NCBI GenBank assembly: GCA_031292305.1
Contig: JARLHJ010000034.1
Span: forward strand, 1-64,000
Direction of reading: 5' to 3'
DNA from: Candidatus Babeliales bacterium
Lineage (GTDB): Bacteria; Babelota; Babeliae; Babelales; JABDEC01
DNA: 64,000 nt
Made by a program: the position numbers and the translations under genes. The notes below the pieces were generated by a model. It ran no database searches. It saw nothing but the letters and a program-made list of their open reading frames with translations, and was not told the DNA's origin. Shown in pieces: positions 3,193-60,427 of this stretch; the first letter of the stretch is position 1, and every line of letters begins with the position of its first letter.

Positions 3193-3669
3193 TTAATAAA
3201 ATTCAATTCTCAAAGTTTCCGGTATAGAAGAAGTTGATAATAATTTATTTAATTGGTCAACAAGACTCTGTCGACCAGATTCAGAAAATTTTATTTGCGA
3301 TAATTTTTTTGCTAATTCTAAACATGTATAAAAAAGTTTATTTTTATAAGCTTTATAAAATTCTAGATATAAATTAAATGTATTGCCAATATACATTCCA
3401 CATACTGCACAATCTTTGCAATTAATTAGAGGTCTTTTTAATTGTAAAGCTTGAGAAGGGCTATCAAGATTATATTCATCATCATAGTCTTGATTTGCAA
3501 CCAAAACAGTTTCGGGCTCTAACCTTTTATCAGGCATGGAAAATTGTTTAATTAAGCATATTTCATGAAACTTACAGCGACAAGGTAACTCTATGAATCG
3601 ATTTTCTTCTATTTCTTCCAAACAAATTTGGCAATCGAACGAATTTATATTTGTGAAAATAAAGAGCAT
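3193..3669 (-). CDS. Exported RING-finger-like protein (variant zinc ligands)
   Basis: The predicted protein carries a RING-like cysteine/histidine pattern at residues 13-95: CQIC, then PCRCKFHEIC, then CAVCGMYIG. The final pair aligns with CPTCRFYIG of the neighbouring canonical RING protein, so the two are paralogues. Here the first His-type ligand is Cys (C-x-C-x-F-H-x-x-C), and an acidic insert (LVANQDYDDEYN region) separates the metal sites. The rest is helical and basic. The ATG at 3669 has no ribosome binding site and would give a signal peptide without a charged start. An in-frame ATT at 3690-3688 follows AAGGA and would give a proper signal peptide (see findings). A role as an exported E3-type ubiquitin ligase is inferred from the domain only. 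Confidence 0.75.
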   Translation of the reverse strand: MLFIFTNINSFDCQICLEEIEENRFIELPCRCKFHEICLIKQFSMPDKRLEPETVLVANQDYDDEYNLDSPSQALQLKRPLINCKDCAVCGMYIGNTFNLYLEFYKAYKNKLFYTCLELAKKLSQIKFSESGRQSLVDQLNKLLSTSSIPETLRIEFY

Positions 3670-3700
3670 TAAAAATATATAATTTTTAATATTTTCCTTA

Positions 3701-4456
3701 CTATGAATAAATACCCAGATATTGCTTAGTAATTATATTTAAATGTAATTTATTTTCTTTAAAATAATCAATACAATCCCTAAGAACCTGTTTATTTGTT
3801 ATATATTGAATGCAATGTTGTAGTAATGTGCAAATTAACATTTTAGTTTGGCGATTATTTTTAATATATCTGGAATTATATAAATTGAAATAAGTTTCTT
3901 TTAAGAAATTTAAACGTTTTAATGCTATATTCTTAATAGAATAAGGTAATATTGGGGTATTTCTTTTCTTAACTAGAAATGCATCATATTTATGACGAAT
4001 TAATGTACGTATATTTCTTGTTAAATAATGACCCCATTTTTTAGCACTAGATTCTAAGCCTTCAACTAATTGTCTATTTACATCATTATTTTCTAGTATG
4101 CCTAATTTAATATTAGATTTGATGTGATGAAGATACGTAGCTTTTTGAATATATAATCTATCAGCTTGATCTATTATTACAGATAATTCTTTGTTTTGTA
4201 ACGAGATTAAAAATTGTTTGTATAATTCATATGCTCCTTGATTACCAATGTAAAATCGACAAGTAGGGCATGTAGAATGCAAATGTGTTTGAACCCAACT
4301 ATCTAAACAAGTAGTGCAATAAATATGTGTACAAGGAAGTTTTGTAGATACTAGATTAAGTTCGCTAAGACAAATAATACAATCTTGAGAGTTAATTTGA
4401 AATGTGAATAAGAAAATAAAAATTAAAAATTTTTTATAACAATTTTTCCAATTCAT
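3701..4456 (-). CDS. Exported RING-HC finger protein, candidate E3 ubiquitin ligase effector
   Basis: Residues 1-24 form a Sec signal peptide (MNWKNCYKKFLIFIFLFTF, then QINSQ). A canonical C3HC4 RING follows at about residues 26-67: CIIC, LPCTHIYCTTCLDSW, STCPTCRFYIG. All eight zinc ligands are present. RING fingers recruit E2 enzymes for ubiquitin transfer in eukaryotes. Bacteria lack this pathway, so a signal peptide plus RING suggests action in a host cell. The remaining 180 residues are helical and basic with no recognised domain, and may be the substrate-binding part. The start lies inside the 3' end of pth (23-base overlap), which indicates translational coupling. The zinc ligands are seen directly; E3 activity is inferred. 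Confidence 0.85.
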   Translation of the reverse strand: MNWKNCYKKFLIFIFLFTFQINSQDCIICLSELNLVSTKLPCTHIYCTTCLDSWVQTHLHSTCPTCRFYIGNQGAYELYKQFLISLQNKELSVIIDQADRLYIQKATYLHHIKSNIKLGILENNDVNRQLVEGLESSAKKWGHYLTRNIRTLIRHKYDAFLVKKRNTPILPYSIKNIALKRLNFLKETYFNLYNSRYIKNNRQTKMLICTLLQHCIQYITNKQVLRDCIDYFKENKLHLNIITKQYLGIYS

Positions 4457-12048: not shown

Positions 12049-12960
12049 TTAGAACTGTATTCCAAATTTGGCCCAGGCCATCCATTTATGCAATGCATTG
12101 TTTCGTGCTGAAAATTCATATGATACTCCAAGGCCAGTATATTTAGGATGATTAATATTATCCCAATGCCAAGCAACTGATCCGTACAATATATGCGAAA
12201 TTAAAGCAGGATGCGATGCGGATTCTAAATCTAAATCAGATTCATTAATTTCTTTATAAACCTCAACGCCATTTACAGTGTCATTAGCTATACCAGTATA
12301 TTGATTTATTGTTGCATTATTTCTGCTCACTTGTCCTAGTGTGAATTTTCCATCTTTGGTAATTGCAGCAATTGCAGGACCCTTTACCCATTTATGTGTA
12401 AGCCTTACATCTTCTGCTTGGCGAGAAAAGAAGTGATAACCAGCTTCGGCTTCAAAACCTAAATCAGTTTTTAAAATAAATGCTGTATTTAAATCTCTTG
12501 CAGTGCCTTGAGACACTTGAAGTGGTCTTGTAAATACATTAATACCAGGAGATGTTGTTGTTGATTTATTATCTAAGTAAACCCACATGTATCTACTCCA
12601 TGGCTTAGCTTTAAGATCAAATGATCGTGTTTGTGTATTTTCTATATACATTGTTCCCATTGTGTCAATTTGATAATATATTGAACTGCTACAAGTTGAC
12701 CAAACTTTAAAGCCAGCTGATATGCCTGAAAATATTGTATAATGATTATTATTACCAACTCTAGGTTCCCACAGGAATTCAGCAGTAGCACGAGCTTCTG
12801 TTGGAGCACTAAGTCCTATAAAACTTTCCAGATTATAAACTTCTTCTTTTTTAGTAAGATAACCAAGACTAATATAAATATCAGAAAATCCGCTTTTTGA
12901 AGGTAAATTATTTTTTATTTTTCCAAACATCCAAGATTGTTGTTGAAGAGCTTGTGTCAT
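12049..12960 (-). CDS. C-terminal part of an exported protein gene split by an in-frame stop
   Basis: This 303-residue frame continues the preceding one after TAA plus three codons (GTT GCA AAT), in the same reading frame. It has no signal peptide and no ribosome binding site before ATG 12960, so it is unlikely to be an independent exported gene. It is rich in aromatic residues and alternating strands (FSGISAGFKVWSTCSSSIYY, later TGLGVSYEFSARN) and ends in W-x-K-F-G-I-Q-F, a terminal-aromatic pattern typical of outer-membrane beta-barrels. Together with the upstream part it would form a 529-residue exported barrel protein. If the stop is real and not read through, this part is a pseudogene fragment. 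Confidence 0.6.
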   Translation of the reverse strand: MTQALQQQSWMFGKIKNNLPSKSGFSDIYISLGYLTKKEEVYNLESFIGLSAPTEARATAEFLWEPRVGNNNHYTIFSGISAGFKVWSTCSSSIYYQIDTMGTMYIENTQTRSFDLKAKPWSRYMWVYLDNKSTTTSPGINVFTRPLQVSQGTARDLNTAFILKTDLGFEAEAGYHFFSRQAEDVRLTHKWVKGPAIAAITKDGKFTLGQVSRNNATINQYTGIANDTVNGVEVYKEINESDLDLESASHPALISHILYGSVAWHWDNINHPKYTGLGVSYEFSARNNALHKWMAWAKFGIQF

Positions 12961-12969
12961 ATTTGCAAC

Positions 12970-13638
12970 TTAACCCGCTGGAACAATTGGATCATCGCCA
13001 TTGGCCCCGCCTTTATGTATTATTTTTTCTGTAATTCCAATATTATTTTTTACTGTTAAAAAAGGTATTGTAAGGCTATACCAAAAGCCATTGTTTGCGT
13101 ATCTATCAGCGTGGTGTTTAAAAACTAATCCGAAGCCTACAAATTTTTGAGTAGGATGTAATGATACTTCACTTTCAAAAGTATTATCGCTAAAATTTAC
13201 CGCTGTTCCTGATTTGAATGGTGCTGATGTCATAACTCCAAAATAATTTGCAACAACATCAACTTCTCCTTGTTTTACCCAATTGGAGCCTAATTCGCCT
13301 GCGCGGATAAATATTCTGTCATTAAAATTGTTTTGACATTTAGCATCATTTTCAGGCCGTATTGTTTTTTCAAATGGTAAAAAATAGGTCGCTAAATCAT
13401 GTGCGTTTACAGATTGTCCACCAAGTGCAGTAACTTCTAAAGTAAATTTTTTATTTTCTTCAATTACACGCATTTGCGTGCGACCTATAGAAATAGTTTC
13501 TGGTGATATTGGCTTGAATATTGGTTGTACTGAAAAATATGTTTTGCTTGAAACCTTGCTGAATCCACTTGAAAAAATTCCACAAAAACTACGCGAGATA
13601 GTTAGCAATAAAACTAATATTAAATATCTTTTTTTCAT
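12970..13638 (-). CDS. N-terminal part of the same interrupted exported protein, probable outer-membrane protein
   Basis: A signal peptide (MKKRYLILVLLLTISRSFCG) opens a 222-residue frame that ends GGANGDDPIVPAG and TAA. The mature part is rich in Phe, Ser, Gly and Asn with beta-type alternation (ISIGRTQMRVIEENKKFTLE, then VGFGLVFKHHADRYANNGFW). The tail PIVPAG-stop-VANMTQALQQQS reads through smoothly into the next frame. AAAAAGGAAAAA precedes the ATG. A porin-like or surface-protein role is inferred from composition only; no family is recognised. Confidence 0.65.
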   Translation of the reverse strand: MKKRYLILVLLLTISRSFCGIFSSGFSKVSSKTYFSVQPIFKPISPETISIGRTQMRVIEENKKFTLEVTALGGQSVNAHDLATYFLPFEKTIRPENDAKCQNNFNDRIFIRAGELGSNWVKQGEVDVVANYFGVMTSAPFKSGTAVNFSDNTFESEVSLHPTQKFVGFGLVFKHHADRYANNGFWYSLTIPFLTVKNNIGITEKIIHKGGANGDDPIVPAG

Positions 13639-13777
13639 TTTTTCCTTTTTGCTTGTGAAACAAATTATATCTTTTAAGCAAATATAATCAACTGCAAGGA
13701 AAAAATTGGATATTGTAATGAAAAATCAAATTGTTAAAATTAGAATTATAAAGTTTGATTATATGAAGGACAAGAAT

Positions 13778-14788
13778 ATGAATGACATGATGTTAGAAAA
13801 AAATACAAAATTAAATACGCCGGAATTAACAGAGGAAATTGCTGTCTCATCACAAGCATTTGATTTATTAAAGCGTGAAATTTCTAAAGTAATAATAGGT
13901 AACGAAGAAATTATAAATTTTATTTGCATAGCAATAATATGTAATGGACACATATTATTAGAAGGCGTACCAGGTGTAGCAAAAACTACAATGATAAAAG
14001 CATTTTCAAACGCATTGGGTTTAGTGTTTAAACGTATTCAATTTACACCGGATTTATTGCCAACAGATTTAATCGGAACATTAATTTATAATCAAAAAAC
14101 TCAAGAATTTGAAACTAAAAAAGGTCCAATTTTTGCAAATATTATTTTAGCAGATGAAATTAATAGAGCATCTGCCAAGGTGCAATCGGCACTATTAGAA
14201 TGCATGCAAGAACATCAAGTTACTATTGGTTCACAAACATATAAATTAGATGAACCATTTTTTGTTTTTGCAACACAAAACCCAGTAGAGCAAGAAGGTA
14301 CTTACCAACTTCCAGAAGCGCAACTTGATAGATTTATGTTTAAGCTAATGGTTAATTATCCTTCTATACAAGAAGAAAAAAAAATAGTTACTAATATTGG
14401 ATTGCATAATGTTATTAACCAAGTTTTAAGTAAAGAAAATATATTTAAAGCACAAGAATTGGTGAACAGTATTTATCTAGATGAAAAAATTCTTGATTAC
14501 ATTGTGAGCATTGTAGCAGCTACGCGAGACCCGGAAAAATTTAATATAAAAAACATAAAAGAATATATTAGTTATGGTGTTTCTCCACGTGCTACTATAG
14601 CTCTTTACCAAGCAAGTAAAGCGCAAGCATTTTTAAAGCATAGACATTTTGTAATACCAGATGATGTGAAATTTATTGCATTTGCAATAATAAGACATAG
14701 ATTAATACTAAGTTATGAAGCCCAAGCAGATAATATAAATGCTGATGATATTGTAAAAAAAATATTAGAAACTTTGCCATCTCCTTGA
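13778..14788 (+). CDS. MoxR-family AAA+ ATPase
   Basis: The start at 13778 is chosen because AAGGACAAGAAT stands directly before it. The long upstream extension from 13706 lacks a binding site and is not like the family. The protein of 336 residues has Walker A GVPGVAKTTM, Walker B ILADEINRA, the MoxR block KVQSALLECMQEHQVTIG, sensor 1 FFVFATQNPVEQEGTYQLPE and the arginine region LPEAQLDRFMFKL. A sensor 2-type block GVSPRATIALYQASKAQAFL ends the domain. MoxR ATPases act as chaperones, often with VWA proteins, but no VWA gene is nearby. It precedes the type II secretion operon, although a separate promoter lies in between. Confidence 0.93.
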   Translation: MNDMMLEKNTKLNTPELTEEIAVSSQAFDLLKREISKVIIGNEEIINFICIAIICNGHILLEGVPGVAKTTMIKAFSNALGLVFKRIQFTPDLLPTDLIGTLIYNQKTQEFETKKGPIFANIILADEINRASAKVQSALLECMQEHQVTIGSQTYKLDEPFFVFATQNPVEQEGTYQLPEAQLDRFMFKLMVNYPSIQEEKKIVTNIGLHNVINQVLSKENIFKAQELVNSIYLDEKILDYIVSIVAATRDPEKFNIKNIKEYISYGVSPRATIALYQASKAQAFLKHRHFVIPDDVKFIAFAIIRHRLILSYEAQADNINADDIVKKILETLPSP

Positions 14789-14872: not shown

Positions 14873-15973
14873 ATGAAGCAATCATTATGGATTGTAAATA
14901 GTATTCTGTTTTGTTTATTTTTAGGTGTTATTTTATTTATTGCTTTTTCAAAAGTAAAAATTGCTTCAAGAAAGTCAATTGTTCCGGAGGTTGTTTCAAC
15001 TAAAGGAGAAGTAATAACAAAAATGGATACAACTGCAATTTATAAAAATGATTTATTTGGCACAACGCAGCCTATGCAAATAAAAAATCAAGAAACTACT
15101 GAATTAGAAATAGCAATGCCAGCAGCACCACAAGCAGTTAGGGCAGAAGTTCCAGAAGTAGAAAATCCTAATTTTCTTGAACCGTTACCATTAACATTAA
15201 CTGGAATAATAGTGGTTAGTGATGAAAGTAATAATCAAGCCATAATAATGGACAATAGAACCAATAAGCAAAAGAATTATAAATTAGGTGATGAAATTGA
15301 AGATGCTCAAATAGCTAGCATATTTAAAGAAAAAATAATTTTAATAAGGTCTAATGGCCAACAAGAAGTATTATACCTAAGAACAGCAGACGTGAAACAA
15401 GATAGTCCTATGGAGCAAAAAGATTGGAAGAAGATTATTAAAAAAAATGGTGAAAATGAATACGATGTTGACTATGAAAAATTTGCTGAAAATGTAAAAA
15501 GCATTGGTTCGTTTACAGATTTAATGAATCTAACTTCTGCCTATAAAGATGGTAAAAATATTGGTGTAAAAGTTGGAAAAGTAGAAACAGGTAGTTTAGC
15601 AGCTGAACTAGGGTTGCAACCAGGCGATATTATTCAAAAAGTTGATGGAATCGAAGTTGATAATACTCAAAATAGATATGAAGCATATTCAAAAGCAATT
15701 TGTAAGCAAGATGAAGATTTTATAAATGTTGAAGTTTTAAGAAGTGATAAAACACAAACAATAAAATATAGACTTTCAACCGCTAAGGATCTAATTATAA
15801 AATCTGAGATTAAACCAAAAGAGATTAATGAAGAGAATATAATTAAAGAAAAAATGAAAGTGCTGCAAGAAAAGCATAAGTTTGCTCCAAGTTATAAAGA
15901 AATAAAATCACAAGAAAGATCAAAATTATTTAAAAAGATGGCAGACTATAAACCTAATGATGTTAATAAATAG
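14873..15973 (+). CDS. gspC: Type II secretion system protein C-like, with PDZ domain
   Basis: GspC links the inner-membrane platform to the outer-membrane secretin. Residues 4-27 form a single N-terminal membrane anchor (LWIVNSILFCLFLGVILFIA). The HR domain follows near residues 105-165 (LPLTLTGIIVVSDESNNQ, then NYKLGDEI). A PDZ domain is present around residues 230-305 (VETGSLAAELGLQPGDIIQK, then VDGIEV). The order anchor-HR-PDZ is diagnostic. The gene is first in the operon, 12 bases before the first secretin. AAAAAGGACTTTGA precedes the ATG. The C-terminal 45-residue charged tail is extra. Confidence 0.88.
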   Translation: MKQSLWIVNSILFCLFLGVILFIAFSKVKIASRKSIVPEVVSTKGEVITKMDTTAIYKNDLFGTTQPMQIKNQETTELEIAMPAAPQAVRAEVPEVENPNFLEPLPLTLTGIIVVSDESNNQAIIMDNRTNKQKNYKLGDEIEDAQIASIFKEKIILIRSNGQQEVLYLRTADVKQDSPMEQKDWKKIIKKNGENEYDVDYEKFAENVKSIGSFTDLMNLTSAYKDGKNIGVKVGKVETGSLAAELGLQPGDIIQKVDGIEVDNTQNRYEAYSKAICKQDEDFINVEVLRSDKTQTIKYRLSTAKDLIIKSEIKPKEINEENIIKEKMKVLQEKHKFAPSYKEIKSQERSKLFKKMADYKPNDVNK

Positions 15974-15984
15974 GTAATGACAAT

Positions 15985-18231
15985 ATGAATTCAATAAAAT
16001 TGCTCTTTTTAGCAGGTTCATTTTTAATTAAAATTCAAGCGGATGCTCCCAATAGCAATTTGATTGGGATGTTAGAAAAAATTTCAGAACAACCTACAAA
16101 AGATTTAGTAAAAAGCGATGATGATCGTCAGGTTAATCCTGAAATGACGACAGCTTTAGAAAAAAAAGTATTAGAACTTCCTGAAAAATTTGAAGATCTA
16201 GAAAAACTAAAAGAAAATAAAGAAGAATTAAAATATGATCTCAACTTTGAAAACGCTTCTGTAAAAAATGTTTTAGATTATGTGCAAGGCATATTCAATA
16301 TTATTTTTTTCTCAGACGATCAGGTAATTAGTGAGAAAAAACCAAAAGGAGTTGGTGACCTTAAGGTAACCTATAAAACTAATAAAAAAATTTCACAAAA
16401 AGAAATTTTGAATTTTATAGATTTAATATTAGAGCTTGCTGATCTTGCACGTATAAAAATGGCTGGAGTGGAAAATACATATAGAATTACCAATATTGTA
16501 AATGCAAATAAATCTAATTTGCCAACCTATATTGGAATAGATTCAAATGATCTTCCAGATGAAGGCAGAATACGTTATGTATACTTCTTTCAAAATAGAC
16601 CTGTAAATCAATTAGCAGAAATAATAAGAAAATTACAAAGTAGAACAGGACAAATTAATACATTTCCTGACTCAAATGCAATGATATTTACTGACGAGGC
16701 ATTCAACATTAAATATCTAATGAATGTTATAAAAATAATGGATTCAAAAGATTTGCCAGAGGTTCTATCTATCTTAAAGCTAAAAAATGCTGATGCAGGC
16801 GAAGTAGCCAAGCTATATGAAACTTTAAAGGGCAAAGATGATATATTCAATCCATTTGCAGAAAAAAAGGGTCCAAAGCTTACACAAACTCTGAAAGTAA
16901 TTACAGAGCCAAGAATGAATGCATTAATATTATTTGGTCCGCGGGATCAAGTCCAACAAATAGAAAAATTCATAATAGACCATGTAGATATAGAGCTTCA
17001 AGAGATACCAGCAAAAATATTCACACGTAAATTAAATTATGCCCCAGCAGAACAAGTAGCTAAAATATTAAGTTCTGTAGTTGGTTATGGTGCAGAAACA
17101 GAAGCTGCTAAATATGGTGGCATAAAAGCCGGAGAAAAATATTTAAGCAATATGTCTTTTGAAGCAGATAAACAAGGAAATATTTTAATTATTCGTGGAA
17201 GCTTGGAAGATTATAATTTAATTAAGCCGTCTATTGATGAACTAGATAAGCCTCAAAGACAAGTAGCCGTGGAAGTCTTATTAGTGACTATGAGTTTAGA
17301 TGATACTAGAGAAATTCAAAATCAAATAAGAAATAAAAACCCAGGCAAACTAGACTTTCAATTACTTAATCAAATAACACCAACAGTAGTTACTGATACA
17401 GGTAGACTTACAGGGAATTTATTAAATAACGTAGTTAATGGCTCTTATGTAGGTACTGGATGGAACCTGTTTTCTTTAGGTAAAAGCGATGCTTGGTCAT
17501 TGTTAGATGTGTTACATTTTCCAAATCGTACAAACACCTTAGCGCATCCATTTTTGGTTGCTACAAATAAATACACTGCTACAGTTTCTATAGGTACAAA
17601 GCGTAACGTTGTAATAGGTAATATCACCAGTAGTGGACAAAATACAGATGAAAAAGATTTTGTTGAAGCATCAACAACAGTTAAAGTTACTCCTCAAATA
17701 AATTCGTTTGGAGTAATCAATTTAGATATTGATATTTTAATAGAGCAATTTACTTCAGCTGATCCTAACAGTCCAAATAGAAGTATTCAAAAAGTTCGCA
17801 CAAATACAAGTGTTGCTGAAAATGAAATTATAGCACTTGGTGGAATAATAGATAAAACACGTACTAATGATGAAGTTGGGTTGCCAATAATTTCTAGGAT
17901 TCCATTTATTGGTTCACTATTTAGAGGTAAAATAACCGATTTAACAACAGATTGTTTAATGGTATTTATTTGCCCTAAAATTATTAATCCGCATGCTAAT
18001 TTATTAACACCATTTACACAAAGTAAGTTAGATGATGTTGGTAATTTGATGACGGAAATGGATAGTTACGAAAATCCACGTGACCCTATTAGTAGATGGT
18101 TCTTTAAAGAGCCACATAAAGAAATGAATAAAATGGTGGATGATTTTGTTTATAAAAATATAGAGAAGCCAAAAACACAGATAAATACAAAATCAAAAAC
18201 GGGTTCTAATAAAATAGATGGCAAGAAATAA
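15985..18231 (+). CDS. Secretin (GspD-like), copy A1
   Basis: Secretins form the outer-membrane channel of type II secretion. The protein has a signal peptide (MNSIKLLFLAGSFLIKIQAD), a charged spacer, an N0-like domain (LNFENASVKNVLDYVQGIFN), and N1 to N3 domains (RIRYVYFFQNRPVNQLAEII; IIRGSLEDYNLIKPSIDELD). The C-terminal secretin domain begins at PQRQVAVEVLLVTM and carries VGLPIISRIPFIGSLFRGK, the family signature. Length is 748. It overlaps the next secretin by 14 bases and is a close paralogue of it. A conserved DPISRWFF block stands near the C-terminus. Whether both copies assemble together is unknown. Confidence 0.9.
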   Translation: MNSIKLLFLAGSFLIKIQADAPNSNLIGMLEKISEQPTKDLVKSDDDRQVNPEMTTALEKKVLELPEKFEDLEKLKENKEELKYDLNFENASVKNVLDYVQGIFNIIFFSDDQVISEKKPKGVGDLKVTYKTNKKISQKEILNFIDLILELADLARIKMAGVENTYRITNIVNANKSNLPTYIGIDSNDLPDEGRIRYVYFFQNRPVNQLAEIIRKLQSRTGQINTFPDSNAMIFTDEAFNIKYLMNVIKIMDSKDLPEVLSILKLKNADAGEVAKLYETLKGKDDIFNPFAEKKGPKLTQTLKVITEPRMNALILFGPRDQVQQIEKFIIDHVDIELQEIPAKIFTRKLNYAPAEQVAKILSSVVGYGAETEAAKYGGIKAGEKYLSNMSFEADKQGNILIIRGSLEDYNLIKPSIDELDKPQRQVAVEVLLVTMSLDDTREIQNQIRNKNPGKLDFQLLNQITPTVVTDTGRLTGNLLNNVVNGSYVGTGWNLFSLGKSDAWSLLDVLHFPNRTNTLAHPFLVATNKYTATVSIGTKRNVVIGNITSSGQNTDEKDFVEASTTVKVTPQINSFGVINLDIDILIEQFTSADPNSPNRSIQKVRTNTSVAENEIIALGGIIDKTRTNDEVGLPIISRIPFIGSLFRGKITDLTTDCLMVFICPKIINPHANLLTPFTQSKLDDVGNLMTEMDSYENPRDPISRWFFKEPHKEMNKMVDDFVYKNIEKPKTQINTKSKTGSNKIDGKK

Positions 18232-20287
18232 AAATTTATTAATTATTACATGTTTTTTAATTTTTAAAATTTTTGGTGATGAGCCAAAAGTTGAGCTTAA
18301 TTTTGAAAGTGCTTCTTTAGAAAATGTCTTAAGTTACATCGAAGAATCTTTTAATATAAAGCTTTTGCCAGATGATGCAATAGTTACAGACAAGAAAATA
18401 AAAGGTGTAAAAGATGTTAAAATTACATTTAAATCTAATAGACCATTTAATAAAACACAAGTTCTTGAATTTCTTGATCTGTTATTAGAAGTTTCAGAAT
18501 TGGCGCGTATTCCAGCTCCTGGAGTACCAGACCTATTTAGAATAACCAATGTTGCAAATTCTAATAAAGCTTACTTGCCTACTTTCATATCTAAAGAAAT
18601 TGATGAATTACCTAATGAAGGCAGAATTCGTTATCTTTATTTTTCTAAAAATAGGCCAATTAATCAATTAAAAGATATTATTCAAAAATTACAAAGTAAA
18701 AATGCTCAAGTTAATATTTTTCCAGATTCGAATGCTTTGATAATTGTAGATGAAGCTTATAATGTTAAATCGTTATTAAAGATTATTAAAGAATTAGATA
18801 CCTTAGATTCTCCAGAAATCTTAACAATTATTAAATTAAAAAATAGTGATGTAAATGACATAATTAAAATTTATGATTCACTAAAAGGTAAAAATGAGAC
18901 ACATAATCCATTTGTAGATACAAAAGGTACTAATCTTGCGCAAGAAGTAAAAGCTATAGCAGATAATAGAACTAATTCTTTAATTTTATTTGGTCCCAAG
19001 AATGAAGTTAGAAAAATTGAAAAATTTATTACTGAACATATAGATATCGAACTAAACGTAACGTCTAAAAATATTCATTTTTATAAATTAAATTATGCGT
19101 CTGCAGAACAAGTTGCCAAAATTATGAATTCAGTTTCTCAGTATGGTGCTGCAACTCAAACAGGACAAGCTCAAGGAGTTAAATCTGGTGAACAATTTAT
19201 CAATAATTTATATTTTGAAGCTGACAAAAGTGGAAATAATTTAATTATTAAGGGACCTTTAAAAGAATATAACTTAATTAAAAATACCATTGAACAATTG
19301 GATGCTCCTCAACCTCAGGTTGCGCTAGAGGTTTATATTGTAACAGTTGATTTAACAGAATCAAAATCTATTCAATCTCAAATCAGAAATAAAAACTTAG
19401 GCCAATTAAATTATCAATTTGTTAACTCTAATACCGTAGTTAGTCCAACTGGTTCATTAGTTGCTAATTTAATTTCTTTGGCTACTAATTCAACAGTTTA
19501 TCCGGCTGGCAGTACTCTTATTTCTTTAGGCAAGGTGGATGTTTGGGCTTTAATTGGAATTTTACAAAAAGAAGTTTCTACGAATGTGATAAGCAATCCT
19601 TTTTTGGTAACGGCAAATGGTACACCTGCAAAATTAACATTTGGAACACAACGAAGAGTAACTACTAGTAATATTGTAACTACTGGACAGACAACACAAA
19701 ACTCATTTGGTACTGCCGAAGCAAATATATCTGTTAGTGTTACACCGCAGATAAATGCTTCTGGATTTATTAGTTTAACTATTGATATACGTATTGAAAG
19801 TTTTACAAGTACTGATCCATCTTCACCTGATATGAATAAAAGCCAAATTTCATCTAAGATTAAAGTTGCTGATGGTGAATCTGTTGCTTTAGCAGGCCTT
19901 ACGATGAATACGCGTACTTATTCTAAGATTGGTATACCCATTTTAGAAAATATACCAATTCTGGGGCATTTATTTAGTTCTACATATAGTGATTTAGAAA
20001 AAAGTAATGTCATGGTATTTGTATCTCCAAAGATTATTAATAATACTTTTTCTAAAAATCCAATGAATAGTTTTACTAAAAATAAAACAAATGATATTAA
20101 TCAATTAATAGATGAATCACAAAGTTATTTAAATGTGCGTGATCCTATAAATAAATGGTTCTTTAATGAACCGGATAATGAACTTAAAAATATGTTTAAT
20201 GATTTTGTTAAAATTGATAATAAAGAAATTAATAAAAAGAACAAACCAGTAAAAAAGTCAAAATTAATGGCTAGCGTTGGGGGTTAA
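18218..20287 (+). CDS. Secretin (GspD-like), copy A2
   Basis: A paralogue of copy A1 with the same domains: signal peptide (MARNKNLLIITCFLIFKIFG), N0-like LNFESASLENVLSYIEESFN, N1 RIRYLYFSKNRPINQLKDII, and a secretin domain from PQPQVALEVYIVTV to IGIPILENIPILGHLFSSTY. It lacks the 60-residue charged spacer of A1. The start codon lies inside the end of A1 in another frame, so translation is probably coupled. The C-terminal blocks DPINKWFFNEPDNELKNMF and DPISRWFFKEPHKEMNKMV of A1 correspond. The central strand region LGKVDVWALIGILQKEV matches A1 LGKSDAWSLLDVLHFPN. The duplication is old, as identity is only moderate. Confidence 0.9.
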   Translation: MARNKNLLIITCFLIFKIFGDEPKVELNFESASLENVLSYIEESFNIKLLPDDAIVTDKKIKGVKDVKITFKSNRPFNKTQVLEFLDLLLEVSELARIPAPGVPDLFRITNVANSNKAYLPTFISKEIDELPNEGRIRYLYFSKNRPINQLKDIIQKLQSKNAQVNIFPDSNALIIVDEAYNVKSLLKIIKELDTLDSPEILTIIKLKNSDVNDIIKIYDSLKGKNETHNPFVDTKGTNLAQEVKAIADNRTNSLILFGPKNEVRKIEKFITEHIDIELNVTSKNIHFYKLNYASAEQVAKIMNSVSQYGAATQTGQAQGVKSGEQFINNLYFEADKSGNNLIIKGPLKEYNLIKNTIEQLDAPQPQVALEVYIVTVDLTESKSIQSQIRNKNLGQLNYQFVNSNTVVSPTGSLVANLISLATNSTVYPAGSTLISLGKVDVWALIGILQKEVSTNVISNPFLVTANGTPAKLTFGTQRRVTTSNIVTTGQTTQNSFGTAEANISVSVTPQINASGFISLTIDIRIESFTSTDPSSPDMNKSQISSKIKVADGESVALAGLTMNTRTYSKIGIPILENIPILGHLFSSTYSDLEKSNVMVFVSPKIINNTFSKNPMNSFTKNKTNDINQLIDESQSYLNVRDPINKWFFNEPDNELKNMFNDFVKIDNKEINKKNKPVKKSKLMASVGG

Positions 20288-20289
20288 TA

Positions 20290-21897
20290 ATGATAAAAAA
20301 TATTCTTCTTCCTGAAAAGATAGGTAATTATTTTATATTTCCTAAAAGAATTATTGGATTTTTTTTAGGCAAAAACATAATAAAAGCTACCCAATTAAAT
20401 GTTTCTGGTTCCAGAAAAACTATTGTAGAAAAATATTTTGAAGAACATTTAGAAATAGGAAGCAATTTATCTAGGGCTATAGAAAAAATTATACAAAAAA
20501 CTGATAAATATGATGGTATAAAAGTATCATTACCAGGATCTTTAGTAATTTTTAAAGAATTAACATTGCCGTTTACAGATCTTGATAAAATAAGAATGGT
20601 ATTGGATTTTGAAGTAGAAGCAGCTTTGCCATTTTCTATAGATGAAGCTGTTGTAGATTTTATAGTTATAAAAAAAGATTTGCTTAAGAAAGAATCAACA
20701 ATATTGGCTTGTGTGGCAAGAAAAAAAGATATTTATGAATTAATAGATACTTTTAAAAATGCTGGCTTACAAATTACTAATGTAGGCGTTGATGTAATAG
20801 ATATTTATGGTCTTTATAAATCTATTTATGCTTTGAATACTGGTACAGATATTATTTTGGATATAGAATTTGCATATACAAATGTAATATATGTTCAAAA
20901 TGGTGAATTAAGACTAGCAAGAACTATACATCAGGGAATATCAACTATAGCTAAAAGCATTTCTGAGCATATGAAAATAGATAATAATAAAGCATTAGAA
21001 TATTTGATAAGATTTGGATTAGAGATCAGTGAAGATCAAGAATATAATAGAGCAGTTAACAATGCGATGTCGGAATTTATTGGCTCTATTCAATTTACAT
21101 TAAACTCATTTAAGAGTTTATATTCTAGTTTTTCTGAAATAACAAGAATAATAGTGACCGGCAATGAAATAAAAAAGTTTTCAGAATTTTTAGAAACGAA
21201 ATTGAATATTAAGTCTGAATATTTAAATACGACAAAAATTTTACAAAATAATAATATAACATTTAAAGAAAAGCATTTTCCTAATTCAGGAATAATTAGC
21301 TTAGCGGCAGCACTACCGGTACCACAAACTGAAGAATTTAATTTATTGCGTAAAGATCTTGAACCTAAAGATATTAATTTATTAAATAAGCAAATAATTG
21401 CGTTTATAGCATTATTTATTTTAGCATTTGCACCACTATTAGGTTATAGTTATTTTCAAAAATCTAAATTAGAGACTGAAGTTAATAATTCAAAAAAAGA
21501 AGTTATAGCTATATTAAAAAATGAATTCGAAATAACAGATCCAAAAATACTAAAGAACCTTACTGAAGTTATTCAAACAGCTAAAAGCAAATTAGATGAA
21601 GAAAAAAACATTTGGTATGCCTTTTCACCCCAAACTAGATTGTCTTTTTTGAAGTATTTAAATGAATTGAGTGAAATAATAGATAAAGATGCAATTGGGT
21701 TAAAATTAAAAAAATTGACCATTTTTACTACCGCACCCGATGTTATTACATTAGATGGGGAAGTTAGAGATTTTGCAGCTCTTGGAATATTAGAAAAAGA
21801 ACTAGATGAATCTAAATTATTTAGCCATGTTTCTGCGCCTCAGGAAACAAAATTTAATATTGATATAACTACTAAGAAAAATGAGGAGCTTGAATAA
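20290..21897 (+). CDS. gspL: GspL/PilM-like actin-fold platform protein
   Basis: The cytoplasmic part (residues 1-330) has an actin-like fold of the PilM/GspL type: FFLGKNIIKATQLNVSG at the start, then KIRMVLDFEVEAALPFSIDE, and DIILDIEFAYTNVIYVQNGE. A membrane helix lies near residues 370-388 (QIIAFIALFILAFAPLLGYS), followed by a coiled, then alpha/beta periplasmic part. GspL anchors the secretion ATPase to the membrane and pairs with GspM. The gene lies two bases after secretin A2 and overlaps gspM by one base (TAATG). No GspE or GspF gene is present in this window. Confidence 0.85.
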   Translation: MIKNILLPEKIGNYFIFPKRIIGFFLGKNIIKATQLNVSGSRKTIVEKYFEEHLEIGSNLSRAIEKIIQKTDKYDGIKVSLPGSLVIFKELTLPFTDLDKIRMVLDFEVEAALPFSIDEAVVDFIVIKKDLLKKESTILACVARKKDIYELIDTFKNAGLQITNVGVDVIDIYGLYKSIYALNTGTDIILDIEFAYTNVIYVQNGELRLARTIHQGISTIAKSISEHMKIDNNKALEYLIRFGLEISEDQEYNRAVNNAMSEFIGSIQFTLNSFKSLYSSFSEITRIIVTGNEIKKFSEFLETKLNIKSEYLNTTKILQNNNITFKEKHFPNSGIISLAAALPVPQTEEFNLLRKDLEPKDINLLNKQIIAFIALFILAFAPLLGYSYFQKSKLETEVNNSKKEVIAILKNEFEITDPKILKNLTEVIQTAKSKLDEEKNIWYAFSPQTRLSFLKYLNELSEIIDKDAIGLKLKKLTIFTTAPDVITLDGEVRDFAALGILEKELDESKLFSHVSAPQETKFNIDITTKKNEELE

Positions 21898-22457
21898 TGC
21901 AAATTTTTGATAAAGTTAGAAGCTTTTTTATTTACATGCAAGAGAATGATTTTAAAAAATATTTAATGATTTTTTTAACAATAATATTTTTGGCTGTTGG
22001 TTTTATTCTATATCAATATTTTTCCAGAATTTCCTATTTAAAAAAAGAAATTCAACGTATTAATGCATCACGCGAAGAAGCTCAAAAGATTTTAACAAAA
22101 CATCAACAGGTAAAAAAACAAAAAGCAATAGTTGCTGAATTGTTAGAAAGAGGCAAAGTTTTTAAAATCTTAGATTTTTTTAATTCAGTGGTTGAAAAAT
22201 TAAATCTTTCCAATAAAGTTAAAGAAACTAAAATAACAGTGAATGGTTTGGAAAATTCTGCTACGCAAGAATATGAAGAAATTAAATTAGAGGTTGATCT
22301 TACTTCAATGAATATGAAAGAATTAACCGATTTATTAAATGAAATAGAAGAAAATGAAAGAGTTTATATTAAGGGTTTAGAAATAACTCATCCTAAAGCT
22401 ATTCCTGCAGTTGATGTTAATATAAGTATTGCAACATTACAGTTAAAGGCAGAATAA
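21897..22457 (+). CDS. gspM: GspM/PilO-like platform protein
   Basis: A bitopic protein of 186 residues. Residues 22-45 form one membrane helix (YLMIFLTIIFLAVGFILYQY), followed by a coiled coil (YLKKEIQRINASREEAQKIL) and an alpha/beta periplasmic domain ending in VDVNISIATLQLKAE. This layout, with position directly after GspL, is typical of GspM or PilO. It overlaps the gspL stop by one base, and the next secretin begins directly after its stop codon, so translation of the cluster is tightly linked. Sequence conservation in this family is low, so the call relies on layout and context. Confidence 0.75.
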   Translation: MQIFDKVRSFFIYMQENDFKKYLMIFLTIIFLAVGFILYQYFSRISYLKKEIQRINASREEAQKILTKHQQVKKQKAIVAELLERGKVFKILDFFNSVVEKLNLSNKVKETKITVNGLENSATQEYEEIKLEVDLTSMNMKELTDLLNEIEENERVYIKGLEITHPKAIPAVDVNISIATLQLKAE

Positions 22458-24737
22458 ATGATAAAACTATTTATGTGCTTATTTTTTTTAACAAGTTATT
22501 TAATCTGTGATGCACCAAAAAATGAAGTAGTTATTTGCAAGCAAAAAAAAATACTATTCAATGAAAAAGATGAACCAGAAGATCTAGCTATTCTAATCGG
22601 TAAATTGGCAAAACTAAGCAATATAAATATTTTATTTCCACAAGATGAAAAATTTTCAGTTAAATTAAATTATCCACAAACAGAAGTAACATTAGATGAA
22701 GCTTGGAATATAGTTTTAAATGCACTGGATATTGCAGGCTATTCTAGAGTAAAAAAAAGAGATGAATACCAAATAGTTAATAATACAAATGTATTAAAGC
22801 AACCCCTTGAAGTTTACATAAATATAGATCCTGAAAAATTACCGGGAACAGTTCAAAGAATTAGATACTTATATTATTTTCAAAATATAACTCTAACAGC
22901 TAATAGTCCAGTTTTAACCAACTTAGATCAAATATTAAAAGATATGTTAACACCTGAACCAGAAGGTAATTATTTATTGGATCCTGCTACAAATTCTTTA
23001 TTAATATCACATAGGTCAAATGATATTAAAGGTGTTATGCGTATAATATCAGAACTAGATAAAACAGGTTTTAGAGAGACCATAGAAGTTATACCATTAT
23101 TGCATACAAATGCAGATTATATTTCAAAAATTATAACTCAATTAGTGGCACCTCCAGAAGATCAAAAATTTGGATTTTTTCCCAAGCAACAAAAAGCTGG
23201 TTTATATTTTTCAGAAAATACTAAAGTGGTCGGCATAGACAGAATAAATGCAGTAGCAATTTTAGGTCCAAATGATTCAGTACAACGTGTGAAAAAATTT
23301 ATAGTAAAGCATTTAGATAAACCAATAGAATCAGCCAAATCAGTAATTCATGTAAGGCCCCTTGAATATATAGATGCAACTGATATTGCACCAATTATTC
23401 AAAATATAATAAAAGCAAAATCTGCGGGAGCTCAAGCAGAATCAAAAGATGAGTTATCAAGCGCAATAATAATAGCAGAACAACAAGTCACAACCGAAGG
23501 TTTAAAACCTACAGTCTCAGGTGAACCGTCTGCTACCACAGGTGCAGATCAACCACAAACCGACCAGGCTGTTACTTTGTCTACGGGTTCGAACTCTTTA
23601 ATAGTTGCAGCTCGCGAACAAGATTGGCGAGAAATAAAAAAATTAATAGATCAATTAGATGTACCTCAAATGCAAGTGGCAGTAGAAATTCTAATAGTGC
23701 AATTAGATCTTCAAGATAATAAAGATGTTGGATCACAGTTAAGAAATATAGTTAACAATGGGCAACCACAAAACTTCAACTTCCAATTGGGTAATTTAGA
23801 GAGTCCATTTTTAAATTACAATGCTGATGGAACTCCTAATTTTGCACAAGGTTTAGCTGCAGATTTATTAGAACCGTCTCCTGCAGGTATAGTTTTTGCT
23901 AATTCAGAACCGCCACCAGTCAATTTTGTTGACCCTGCATTGGATCAACCAGGTACTTTTTGGGCATCTGTGGCAGATGGCAATGGGATAGCTTATGTGT
24001 ATCATCAATTAAATAATATTGTGCACAATAAAGTATTATCTAACCCATATATTATTGTTAAAAATAATGTGCAAGCAACAATCACAAATGAACAATTACA
24101 ATTCTTCACAGGTCCTGTTTCAGTAGCATCTGCAGCAGCAGTTGTTGTAAAACAACAACCAATATCTGAAGGTTTAGTAATCGATATAAAGCCAAGAATT
24201 AGTGACGCAGATACTGTAAGTTTAGAGCTATCAGTAAAAATAAACGCTTTTCAGGAATTAATACAAAATACAATTGTAAAACGTGAATTTAGATCGAATG
24301 TATACTTAAAAGATAAAGAGGTATTTGCATTTGGTGGTATGTTAACTGATGATGATAGACAAAGTGAATCAAAGCTCCCATTGTTCGAACGTATTCCACT
24401 TATTGGTTGGTTATTTAAACGCAGAGTAAGTTTTAAAGAAAAAACAGTTTTATATACATTTATTTCTCCTACAATTATTAGACCTAAGCGTGGTGGGGGG
24501 ATTTCTGATTTTTCTAAAGATAAAGTTAATGTACTTAAAAATACTTTAAGAGAATGTGAGCAAGCTTTACTGGGTACAAACTTTGAAAGATTAAAAGATC
24601 CAATTACTAAGTTTTTCTTGCCTACAGGTTATAATGAGTTTAATTATAAGATAGATACATTTGCGACTGATAATACCCACGCGTCGCCTTTAGATAAGGC
24701 GGGAACTGCACAAAATACTCCTGAAAAAGCAGCTTAA
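22458..24737 (+). CDS. Secretin (GspD-like), copy B1
   Basis: The protein has a signal peptide (MIKLFMCLFFLTSYLICDAP), an N0 domain (INILFPQDEKFSVKLNY, then LDEAWNIVLNALDIAGYSRV), N1 to N3 domains (RIRYLYYFQNITLTANS; IHVRPLEYIDATDIAPIIQN), and a secretin domain from PQMQVAVEILIVQL to ESKLPLFERIPLIGWLFKRR. An Ala/Thr/Gln-rich insertion interrupts N3 (about residues 325-380). The C-terminus has DPITKFFLPTGYNE. This is a second type of secretin, different from copies A1/A2 in N0 and in the C-terminal block. It follows gspM without a gap. Confidence 0.9.
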   Translation: MIKLFMCLFFLTSYLICDAPKNEVVICKQKKILFNEKDEPEDLAILIGKLAKLSNINILFPQDEKFSVKLNYPQTEVTLDEAWNIVLNALDIAGYSRVKKRDEYQIVNNTNVLKQPLEVYINIDPEKLPGTVQRIRYLYYFQNITLTANSPVLTNLDQILKDMLTPEPEGNYLLDPATNSLLISHRSNDIKGVMRIISELDKTGFRETIEVIPLLHTNADYISKIITQLVAPPEDQKFGFFPKQQKAGLYFSENTKVVGIDRINAVAILGPNDSVQRVKKFIVKHLDKPIESAKSVIHVRPLEYIDATDIAPIIQNIIKAKSAGAQAESKDELSSAIIIAEQQVTTEGLKPTVSGEPSATTGADQPQTDQAVTLSTGSNSLIVAAREQDWREIKKLIDQLDVPQMQVAVEILIVQLDLQDNKDVGSQLRNIVNNGQPQNFNFQLGNLESPFLNYNADGTPNFAQGLAADLLEPSPAGIVFANSEPPPVNFVDPALDQPGTFWASVADGNGIAYVYHQLNNIVHNKVLSNPYIIVKNNVQATITNEQLQFFTGPVSVASAAAVVVKQQPISEGLVIDIKPRISDADTVSLELSVKINAFQELIQNTIVKREFRSNVYLKDKEVFAFGGMLTDDDRQSESKLPLFERIPLIGWLFKRRVSFKEKTVLYTFISPTIIRPKRGGGISDFSKDKVNVLKNTLRECEQALLGTNFERLKDPITKFFLPTGYNEFNYKIDTFATDNTHASPLDKAGTAQNTPEKAA

Positions 24738-24739
24738 AA

Positions 24740-27100
24740 ATGATCTGGTTATTATTAGTTTTGTTTTTATGCAACATAAATATTCAAGCAAGCCCAGCAA
24801 GTATGGGCTTGCTTGATACGTGTAAACAAAAAAAAATATTATTAGATTATAAAAGTGAAGACTTAATAATTATAGCCAATAAAATTGCGGCATTAAAAGA
24901 TATTAATATAATGTTTCCGCAAGATGAAAAATTTTCAGTCAAATTAACTTATTCCAATAAACATGCAATTACAGTAAATGAAGCTTGGAATTTTATTTTA
25001 ACAATATTAGATATTGCTGGTTATAATGGTGTTTTAAAAAATGGTATATATCAAGTCGTTAAAAATACTGATTCCCTAAAAGAACCATTTGAAGTATATG
25101 TAAATACAGATCCTGATAAGTTGTCGGATTCAAGTCAAAAAATAAGATATTTATATAATTTTGAAAATTTAACAATCGCAGCCGGAAGTACAATATTTAC
25201 AAATTTAGACCAGATGTTAAAGGAAATGTTAATCTCAGGTACAGAAGGTAATTACCTTTTAGATCCAGCTACAAATAGTTTGTTAATTACTAATAGATCG
25301 GCGGATATAAAAGCAGTAATGAACATAATAACAGAACTAGATAAAACAGGAATAAGAGAAGTAATAGAAGTTATACCATTATTACATACTAAACCAGATT
25401 ATATTTCAAAAATAGTTGCTCAATTGGCTTCATCACCAAAAGAACAAAAATTTGGTTTTTTCCCCCAAAAGCAAAACCCCGGTTTATATTTTTCAGAAAA
25501 TTTAAAAGTATTACCAATAGATAGAATAAATTCGGTTGCAATATTAGGTCCAAAAAATTCAGTGAATAACGTAAAAAATTTAATTGTAAAATATTTAGAT
25601 AGGCCTATAGATTCTGCTAAATCAACAATTCATGTAAGGGCATTAGATTATATAGATTCTAATGATATAGCACCGGTGATTCAAAATTTAGTAAAAGGAA
25701 AATTGCCATTCGCACAAGCGCAAGTAAAAGATGAATTAGCAAATTCAATAATAATCACAGAGCAACAAGTAACTACAGATGCATTAAAGCCTACTGAATC
25801 AGGTGATCCAACTGCAAATACAGGAACCGATCCAATTCCAGGTGAAGATGCAACTTCCAACAATAAACAACAACTTGCTTCCGGATCCAATTCATTAATA
25901 GTTTCGGCACGCGATAAAGATTGGTTAGAGCTTAAAAATTTAATAGATCAATTAGATACTCAGCCATTACAGGTTGCAGTAGATATACTCATTGTTGAAT
26001 TGAATTTAAATTTTAACAAAAATTTAGGTGCACAAACACGTAATATTAATAATAGTGCGGGTGAGCCACAAACTTTGAATTACCAAAATGCAATGGCTCC
26101 TAGTACAATTGAGAGAACAAATAGTACAGTTGCAGCACCTGTTTTAAATTTTAATAGTGATGGAACAATTAATAGCGTAAGGGGACTTGCTGCAGATTTA
26201 TTGGCGCCCGTTCAAAATGAATCTTCAGGTGCTTCCGCAATAAGTAATTTGGCCACAAATTTAGCATTAGGTTCTTTTATGGCATCATACCAAGATTCAA
26301 ATGGAGTTGCTTATTTTCTTGCAGGGTTAGATCGTAGAAAAGATTCGCAAATTATGTATCATGCATATTCTTATATTAAAAATGGTCAAAAAGCTACCTT
26401 GTCATCAACAGTTGAAAGATTCTTCCCAGGTGAAGCACAAGCCCAAATGGCAGGTTCTTTCAGAATTGTTAATAAACCAATTAAAGCTACAATATCTATT
26501 GATATTTTACCCACAATTAGTAAAACTGAAACTATTACTATGGATGTCAAAGTAAGTGCAAATGTTTTTGATACAGTAATTCCTGATCAGGTTAATAAAA
26601 GAGAATTATCTGTGAAAACATCTGTAAATAATAAAGAAGTTCTGGTAATAGGTGGCTTGATGACATTAACAGATTCTATTACAGTTTATGAAACCCCGAT
26701 TTTATCTAAAATTCCCATACTCGGCACCTTCTTTAGAAACGTACAATATAATAAAGAAAAGAATCCAATTTATATTTTTATTTTACCTACAATTATAAGA
26801 CCAAAAATGCATGGTGGTTATAATGCTTATACAGAAAATAAAATTAACACATTGCGACACAATCTTAATTTCAGTGAAGAATGTTTATTGGGTAGTAATT
26901 TCACTCGATTAAAAGATCCGATTACCAAATTCTTTTTACCGACTGGTTATAATGAAATTAATAATAAAATAGATAATTTTATTGGAGAAAAAGAAATAAA
27001 TTCTCAAGATCCTAATTTGGGAAATAAAATTGATAAAATTAAACAAAACTTGCTAGACGATGATAGTTTAGCATTATTAAAAGATAGTAAAAAAAATTAA
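24740..27100 (+). CDS. Secretin (GspD-like), copy B2
   Basis: A paralogue of copy B1 with signal peptide (MIWLLLVLFLCNINIQASPA), N0 (INIMFPQDEKFSVKLTY), N1 (KIRYLYNFENLTIAAGS), N3 with the same Thr/Gly/Asp insertion, and a secretin domain from PLQVAVDILIVELN to ETPILSKIPILGTFFRNVQY. DPITKFFLPTGYNEINNKID is shared almost exactly with B1. It has an extra stretch in the secretin domain (LADLLAPVQNESSGAS region). It is the last gene of the operon, and its stop codon abuts the stop codon of the convergent gene. No obvious terminator lies in between. Confidence 0.9.
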   Translation: MIWLLLVLFLCNINIQASPASMGLLDTCKQKKILLDYKSEDLIIIANKIAALKDINIMFPQDEKFSVKLTYSNKHAITVNEAWNFILTILDIAGYNGVLKNGIYQVVKNTDSLKEPFEVYVNTDPDKLSDSSQKIRYLYNFENLTIAAGSTIFTNLDQMLKEMLISGTEGNYLLDPATNSLLITNRSADIKAVMNIITELDKTGIREVIEVIPLLHTKPDYISKIVAQLASSPKEQKFGFFPQKQNPGLYFSENLKVLPIDRINSVAILGPKNSVNNVKNLIVKYLDRPIDSAKSTIHVRALDYIDSNDIAPVIQNLVKGKLPFAQAQVKDELANSIIITEQQVTTDALKPTESGDPTANTGTDPIPGEDATSNNKQQLASGSNSLIVSARDKDWLELKNLIDQLDTQPLQVAVDILIVELNLNFNKNLGAQTRNINNSAGEPQTLNYQNAMAPSTIERTNSTVAAPVLNFNSDGTINSVRGLAADLLAPVQNESSGASAISNLATNLALGSFMASYQDSNGVAYFLAGLDRRKDSQIMYHAYSYIKNGQKATLSSTVERFFPGEAQAQMAGSFRIVNKPIKATISIDILPTISKTETITMDVKVSANVFDTVIPDQVNKRELSVKTSVNNKEVLVIGGLMTLTDSITVYETPILSKIPILGTFFRNVQYNKEKNPIYIFILPTIIRPKMHGGYNAYTENKINTLRHNLNFSEECLLGSNFTRLKDPITKFFLPTGYNEINNKIDNFIGEKEINSQDPNLGNKIDKIKQNLLDDDSLALLKDSKKN

Positions 27101-49600: not shown

Positions 49601-49730
49601 TTTAAAACAATTTGTCTTAAATGTTTTAGCAAATTCATCAGAAGAATTTGATACGCATCAAGTTGTTTTTCATGAAGCAGAGTCAGAAGATGATCAAAAA
49701 GAACATTCTCAAGCATTAATTGAGCAATAA
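46611..49730 (+). CDS. Exported ankyrin-repeat protein 1 of 6
   Basis: A 1039-residue protein. A signal peptide (MKKIFNFLVLILSLQVYSLF) leads into an N-terminal ankyrin domain (residues 24-180; PMHEAAARGDVQSLKLL, GETILHIFADDV, TAMHRAISANN). A Pro/Tyr/Met-rich linker (MFPASAEMPYTPMYYPAPMP) and a long acidic/Gln-rich stretch follow, then a basic block (SGLSKHKLEKQKKLAAKAK). A second ankyrin block opens at about residue 484 (KKDLRLHDAISK), then comes a Ser run (ASSVAASSSS), a third (MSALHVAVINNSHKN), and a fourth at about 870-965 (LHIFAALGDADIVELLLKHG). Ankyrin repeats bind proteins. TAGGGCGTTTTTAATA precedes the ATG, a sequence that recurs before ankyrin protein 4. Host-protein binding is inferred. 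Confidence 0.88.
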   Translation: MKKIFNFLVLILSLQVYSLFANPMHEAAARGDVQSLKLLTQDEIDMFKDEFDANGDCPIHCAAKNLQISVIAFLLHNDVLINSLNKNGETILHIFADDVKKDNSEAIYFALNRGAFINAQDGIYNSTAMHRAISANNSAHVNAFLNFRTSNPQNHLNLTVQNKFGQTALMLAHAFHSQGYDRSAIISIIDSVLASGHVAMPMQFNPSMFPASAEMPYTPMYYPAPMPYQTIQNYGQDLANKAPKRNRRKIKAPVVAQEQVALDLSEKKEQEQVQPENAQLVEQLVATPAVEDAQPNMIVDQSEIKVELSQEEYPPLSALKSKESPIIKKKSKVGNAKKKAVKPEPEVVVPIVMSQVELEEVANAQVHAVQVSKSNPVLTQKVSSNSDEEFAKEAIEKVDKVKSGLSKHKLEKQKKLAAKAKILLAKSKKSKQAPKLKAVSSSVSLSGSESSFEDFENNDSGPEDFELVEAYDATDESKKQILQVKKDLRLHDAISKLKSFEEIEPLVTMQAINTPDNDVNFPVHLASIFKNIEVCKKIVQVLVENIADKDELKEKINVANGAGRTALYYAIEKKDMEIVDYLLSKDADRDLLPEKTNNKLIVMEHARELKALQDASEESQSAFVAASSVAASSSSKHEDLSNEQVKLLKNNIQDSQTTEEESFNNYFIAFIMSIIAGKYKEVKAWVDNFPVLATMRDGNEMSALHVAVINNSHKNSFKIIKLLADRNPKAILLDIDSTELHPLNYAISLGDVEVCKYFCFKLRSVPIMNYAVIFEELIVFANQEMEQSKNAKKNNKIKDIIRLLQDALKFFKVMHKNNTLAHALINGTQVGKYNYIDKSKLNSLLVGHVKQYVKSKLPVVREEIKEIISAGANLKEINDNGWYCLHIFAALGDADIVELLLKHGADPAAQDNLGNTPLHVALEHENKEVVAKLSYPGEHLLVKNNEFLTPMLLSEVKAPEYFDLLTKHADVSHKQLLQDIHDVRAHDVDNKYAKLDDLKQFVLNVLANSSEEFDTHQVVFHEAESEDDQKEHSQALIEQ
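48291..48378 (+). repeat. Near-identical DNA block shared with ankyrin gene 2 (copy 1)
   Basis: Eighty-eight bases encoding GRTALYYAIEKKDMEIVDYL and the following residues match 51420-51507 with a single difference, third-codon positions included. The rest of the two genes is much more diverged. This points to recent gene conversion or duplication. Confidence 0.85.
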
Positions 49731-53129: not shown

Positions 53130-53152
53130 AATTAATAAAGATATTAAACATT

Positions 53153-56491: not shown

Positions 56492-56628
56492 TGATTTCTA
56501 AATGAGTTTACAGGGTAAAAGGCTTGCTGCGCTAAGTTCTACTTGTAATAAACCTGGTTTTTGATAAGATGGTAAAATACACAATAAGGTAATTTTTTTG
56601 GGGTAATTTAGGAAAATAGGGCGTTTTT

Positions 56629-60408: not shown

Positions 60409-60427
60409 ATTTTAAATGGAGAAAATT

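Follow-up and report, generated by a model that had tools for sequence, protein, structure and literature searches.

The 64,000 nucleotide window analysed here (positions 1 to 64,000 of contig JARLHJ010000034.1, assembly GCA_031292305.1, from a Candidatus Babeliales bacterium of the phylum Dependentiae) carries at 14873-27100 a type II secretion system (T2SS) operon composed of seven open reading frames (ORFs), all on the + strand: gspC, the secretin genes A1 and A2, gspL, gspM, and the secretin genes B1 and B2. This gene order had been proposed in an earlier note on the same DNA, and all seven ORFs lie exactly where it had placed them. The intergenic gaps from gspC to B2 are, in order, +11, -14 (the start of A2 overlaps the end of A1), +2, -1, 0 and +2 bases; as there are only gaps of at most 11 bases or overlaps, the genes appear from their layout to form a single transcription unit. 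The operon is flanked by a gene for a MoxR-type ATPase on one side and by a convergent gene pair (orf122 and enolase) on the other. Comparison with related genomes shows that across the phylum each T2SS platform is accompanied by two apparently obligate GspD-like secretins, here called A and B, and that both were later duplicated in the lineage of the window.

All four secretins are unbroken, as the earlier note had it: N-domains, a complete barrel and an intact core are found in each by Pfam scan and core-column count. They exceed the cut-offs of Pfam Secretin (PF00263; 86-120 bits against 27.5) and Secretin_N (69-90 bits against 28.2), and the case that two or more copies lack a complete secretin domain, with which the note had reckoned, did not arise in the HMM scan. 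Of the 56 core columns conserved in at least 90% of the other A proteins, A1 keeps 51 and A2 50; for B the figures are 35/42 in B1 and 34/42 in B2, slightly under the least conserved relatives (37), and the changes are mostly conservative. The division into two pairs stands as well, with 48% identity between A1 and A2, 50% between B1 and B2, and 22-25% between A and B. A1 has an additional N-terminal stretch of about 60 amino acids ahead of N0. In the AlphaFold2 models of A2 and B1 the domains N0, N1, N2 and N3, the barrel strands and the C-terminal helices are predicted in the expected order. The confidence of these models is modest (mean pLDDT about 65 for A2 and 60 for B1), so that only domain order and 3Di matches were used, and the whole-chain TM-scores are low (0.2-0.3) owing to uncertain domain orientations. 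The best Foldseek match is PulD (6hcg) for both A2 (1.5e-27) and B1 (8.8e-26), with other GspD structures also among the top matches. An assembly or annotation artefact was rejected, since the copies, with about 50% divergence, have open frames and a conserved core, and since dozens of independent assemblies show the pair.

The best NCBIfam model for all four proteins is GspD, which is matched nearly over its full length from its position 1-7 (GspD-type N0 included) to the end of the barrel, with 197-263 bits. The GspD equivalog cut-off (351 bits) is reached neither by these four nor by the A and B proteins of relatives (top 316), which points to divergent GspD proteins and is the reason for the label GspD-like. 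The Pfam N0 model gives a score for A2 alone, under its cut-off (18.3 against 27). PilQ of the type IVa pili belongs to the same secretin superfamily, but A and B differ from it by the better match to GspD (the NCBIfam PilQ model reaches 96-136 bits) and by their neighbours, which are gspC, gspL and gspM; the pilMNOP neighbourhood typical of PilQ was not encountered around them. The profiles of A and of B each match solved GspD structures best, far ahead of PilQ, type III secretion system and phage secretins. Their matches to solved GspD N-domains include 3oss and 3ezj and cover the N0 region, which in the 3oss complex is the part that binds GspC.

The phylum sample has 19 families; the operon was read in 34 cases drawn from 15 of them, and in about 20 additional loci that bring in three more. 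On every contig of sufficient length the genes run MoxR, gspC, A, gspL, gspM, B, and in most cases the convergent enolase gene comes next. A search with the A alignment recovered 13 loci, several from Dependentiae, Babeliales or TM6; up to their contig ends, all of them show this order. The exceptions are one locus in which no gspM was recognised (L102) and two genomes in which a secretin lies in two ORFs. These split secretins, A in L073/L094 (TM6 GW2011_GWF2_38_10) and B in L077, reflect either decay or sequencing error.

A census of secretin domains in 100 relatives found secretins in 95. In 81 of these, two secretins share a contig and strand at a spacing of 4.2-5.8 kb, which is set by gspL and gspM, while in the remaining 14 the secretins are divided by contig ends or incomplete. 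No intact operon with a single secretin was seen among the 95: every unbroken operon has A and B flanking gspL-gspM, and the single gspD which the earlier note thought might stand here in related genomes was not found. The five relatives without any secretin (G008, G017, G073, G078, G087) also lack gspL, and are therefore genomes in which the whole operon is missing or unassembled rather than single-secretin cases. In two of them (G017 and G087, 96-97% complete) GspE and GspF are kept, and it is possible that the envelope part of the T2SS was lost or that there is an assembly gap. The expectation that other Dependentiae share the order holds in so far as more than one secretin per operon is the rule throughout the phylum; the doubling of both A and B (A-A-L-M-B-B) was found only in the window's genome among the relatives sampled. 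An arrangement A-L-M-B-B is present in three genomes of one family (f2; G004, G011, G012), and probably, in pieces, also in G007. A strain-specific accident is thus rejected for the A+B pair and accepted only for the extra copies. E. coli K-12, the sole operon read outside the Dependentiae, has a single gspD.

A tree of 73 secretins divides A from B almost perfectly, so that the two must have diverged before the sampled families did. A falls in two sets and B in two sets, with an unresolved backbone between them, and the branches starred in the tree are compatible with a single origin for each. A1 groups with A2 (100/99) and B1 with B2 (100/100), and each pair is in turn sister to the single A or single B of G041, a genome of the same family but another genus. 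Alternative groupings were rejected, both for A1 with G041 (p 0.001) and for B1 with G041 (p 2e-6). By this placement the doubling in the window's lineage occurred after the split from G041, separately at the A and at the B position; in f2, B alone was doubled. The four genes are therefore not equivalent variants of a single type: they go back to a phylum-wide pair, both members of which were recently doubled in this lineage. The same data bear on the idea that extra copies serve only for dose or for diversity of surface loops, as interchangeable channels amplified in some lineages without division of labour. Lineage-specific tandem duplicates, including the doubled B of f2, are what this idea predicts; it leaves the ancient pair unexplained, A and B being kept as separate lineages in all sampled families, and the window copies have kept their core despite a divergence that has already reached about 50%, which makes it an unlikely account.

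The earlier note was right that no GspE, GspF or pseudopilin gene lies inside the window, yet these genes are present elsewhere in the genome (1.53 Mb, 47 contigs). A GspE-type ATPase gene starts some 4.4 kb beyond the window, still on its contig (L043:4364; C21:68889), and is truncated where that contig ends; contig C9 carries GspF and, after it, a GspG-like pseudopilin. Together with a GspC having HR and PDZ regions (T2SSC and PDZ over cut-off), these are the components by which a T2SS is recognised, the one departure being the number of gspD genes: two per system across the phylum and four here, instead of exactly one. gspC is present in a single copy, and the gspL profile matches one place. 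The genome has five secretins: the four of the operon and one of 518 residues on contig C34 (L044:10902-12458), preceded by two small genes which by eye, from size and character, are PilP-like and PilO-like (no library match). This fifth secretin looks like a pilus (PilQ-like) secretin. A second GspE/PilB-type ATPase is encoded in two ORFs on contig C29 (L045:8206-10001), a 209 amino acid N-terminal part bearing MshEN and a 390 amino acid ATPase; ORFs of 386-457 amino acids for the second ATPase are common across the phylum, and hence the split may be ancestral. The second GspF is divided by a contig break (C24/C7). Both fit with the PilQ-like gene as a pilus set, and a missing second T2SS platform was accordingly rejected, there being one gspC and one gspL.

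The relation of one platform to two secretins is clearest in fifteen genomes that are at least 90% complete (G013, G014, G016, G018, G020, G022-G025, G027, G028, G030, G031, G034, G035; G024 is a single contig). Besides the A+B pair each has a single GspE-type ATPase and a single GspF (one protein giving two domain hits); with ATPase and GspF both single, A and B cannot belong to two machines there. This bears directly on the proposal that one of them serves the T2SS and the other a type IV pilus, whose secretin would be parked in the T2SS operon. Two families (f11 and f19) speak for it, as they have two ATPases and two GspF/PilC proteins with only A and B as secretins; in these the pilus may share or borrow A or B. 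In the window's genome and in families f1, f8, f12 and f15-f18, by contrast, a second ATPase and platform are accompanied by a PilQ-like secretin distinct from A and B, and the profiles of both A and B prefer GspD over PilQ. Such a split is ruled out in the genomes with one ATPase and one GspF; it could hold in some lineages only, and as a general explanation it is improbable.

A and B have a common element in their tails. After the barrel and a helix, a box with the pattern DPIxRWFF is located about 54 residues past the IPxxGxLF motif; it reads DPISRWFF in A1 and DPITKFFL in both B1 and B2. The pattern is matched by 61 of 70 secretin tails of the phylum, against 0.01 per shuffled tail. By sequence comparison the box is absent from E. 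coli GspD-alpha and from the PilQ-like protein of the same genome, and a representative tail had no match in the PDB. The C-terminal blocks of the two pairs, described in the earlier note as different, are thus not unrelated. The box suggests that A and B may have a common partner for targeting to, or anchoring in, the outer membrane.

In the 28 genomes having all the genes, the correlation between A and B distances is 0.88; with MoxR, enolase and the other operon genes removed it is 0.72, against 0.39 for the next pairs. For the barrel halves of A and B the correlation (r 0.83) exceeds that between the two halves within A (0.77) or within B (0.68). gspC is coupled to A (partial correlation 0.34), most strongly to its N-terminal half, and not to B (-0.12), which makes A the probable canonical partner of the platform. 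The coupling supports interdependence of A and B as judged from sequence evolution, and is not proof of contact.

The reading we favour, with a probability of about 0.5, is that A and B each form their own homomeric ring, both served by one platform, with A as the closer partner of GspC. Each secretin has its own full set of N-domains and barrel, which according to the models of A2 and B1 would be what a self-sufficient homomeric ring needs. Each would assemble a GspD-like ring and would be targeted via the shared C-terminal tail; a single inner-membrane platform (GspC, GspL, GspM, GspE, GspF and the pseudopilins) would dock on either the A ring or the B ring, and the two channels would share the export of a large proteome, each taking its own substrates or acting at its own stage of infection. 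Tandem duplication in the lineage of the window would then have given two specialised versions of each role. Several points weigh against this reading. A mixed ring would explain equally well why A and B evolve in step, most of all in their barrel halves. The coupling comes from 28 genomes, and since A and B are homologous outer-membrane proteins the correlation may be inflated. With 150 columns per gene the A-B value falls to 0.37, level with gspC-gspM, so that part of the signal is due to length and to the shared outer-membrane setting.

We know of no case of a mixed secretin ring. Co-assembly of A and B in one hetero-oligomeric ring, for instance in alternation and with up to four kinds of subunit in the window's lineage, would account for two secretins that are never apart in an unbroken operon, that share one platform and a C-terminal box, and whose branch lengths are coupled above those of any other pair, the barrel halves above all. 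It is the main rival of the favoured reading, yet we consider it less likely, because A and B are so dissimilar, because the doubling of B without A in f2 argues against a fixed A:B ratio, and because solved GspD rings are homomeric 15-mers (PMC6882859), an odd number in which two subunits cannot strictly alternate. For a stacked-ring arrangement there is no specific support.

Table 1. Genes of the secretin operon, the adjacent MoxR gene and the C-terminal box, with positions in the window.
Feature	Position	Strand	Length or residues	Description and matches
MoxR-family AAA+ ATPase	13706..14788	+		True start uncertain; PF07726 AAA_3 8e-66; heads the conserved block in relatives
gspC	14873..15973	+		Inner-membrane segment, HR region, PDZ; PF11356 T2SSC 38.4 bits (cut-off 27); NCBIfam GspC_delta 8e-29
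Secretin A1	15985..18231	+	748 aa	A lineage; Secretin 97 bits, three Secretin_N stretches; GspD model 221 bits
Secretin A2	18218..20287	+	689 aa	A lineage; Secretin 120 bits; GspD model 263 bits
DPIxRWFF box in A2	20141..20164	+	residues 642-649	DPINKWFF
gspL	20290..21897	+		PilM-like cytoplasmic domain, membrane segment, PilN-like periplasmic part; PF11104 PilM_2 50.8 bits; T2SSL weak, 19.1 bits
gspM-like	21897..22457	+		One membrane segment; NCBIfam GspM_XpsM weak, 1.6e-4; called also by position and presence in relatives
Secretin B1	22458..24737	+	759 aa	B lineage; Secretin 102 bits; GspD model 255 bits
Secretin B2	24740..27100	+	786 aa	B lineage; Secretin 86 bits; GspD model 197 bits

The MoxR-type ATPase gene is found directly upstream of gspC in nearly all loci of relatives (Table 1), and no obvious partner gene for it was seen in the loci looked at; the protein is a possible phylum-specific accessory of the T2SS. 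Next to it, two adjoining ORFs of 222 and 303 amino acids (12049-13638, - strand) correspond to one ORF of 528-576 amino acids beside MoxR in L049/L096 and L076, and by this comparison are most simply read as a split or interrupted gene.

The canonical T2SS of Klebsiella (Pul), Vibrio (Eps) and E. coli K-12 (gsp) resemble the Dependentiae system in having gspC beside gspD, the gspL-gspM pair, the N0-N3 and barrel architecture and one GspE/GspF platform. They differ from it in having a single GspD, in place of which the Dependentiae operon carries two secretin lineages (four genes here) with the DPIxRWFF box, along with a PilM-like GspL, and E, F and the pseudopilins of Dependentiae are encoded away from the operon. 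Secretins are taken to be homomeric, one per machine. Pseudomonas aeruginosa has in XqhA an extra secretin besides XcpQ, able to work with the existing T2SS platform; XqhA is encoded at an orphan or partial locus of one species, whereas the Dependentiae pair are obligate operon partners across the phylum. In canonical systems the one GspD forms a 15-fold ring (PMC6882859). E. coli also has two types of T2SS secretin per species, but these belong to two separate complete operons with their own platforms (PMC10329019) and not to one operon on one platform. In Babela massiliensis the T2SS was reported as the only secretion system, and secretins are unmentioned (PMC4378268); papers on Dependentiae speak of a T2SS or of "a derived pulD channel" and of no secretin pair (PMC4378268, PMC6561590). 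No prior notice of two secretins, or of a second one, in one T2SS was found in the open-access literature searched, and an earlier notice is possible.

The exported proteome of the phylum is unusually large: in Chromulinavorax 44% of the proteins have signal peptides (PMC6561590). The window itself contains, at 46611-63904 on the + strand, six consecutive large ORFs (536-1259 amino acids), each with a signal-peptide-like start; the five that were scanned are ankyrin-repeat proteins and the sixth (56629-60408) is alike by eye. These six are candidate T2SS cargo. Two adjoining small proteins at 3193-4456 (- strand) have signal-like N-termini and RING-type zinc fingers (clear in 3701-4456, weak in 3193-3669), and are eukaryote-like and possibly exported.

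A phylum with two diverged secretins per platform constitutes a natural test of whether a T2SS feeds two channels or builds a mixed ring; the latter, if true, would be without precedent among the secretin channels known to us. Dependentiae infect protists and the T2SS is the only secretion system reported for them, so that the paired channels probably deliver most of the proteins that modify the host.

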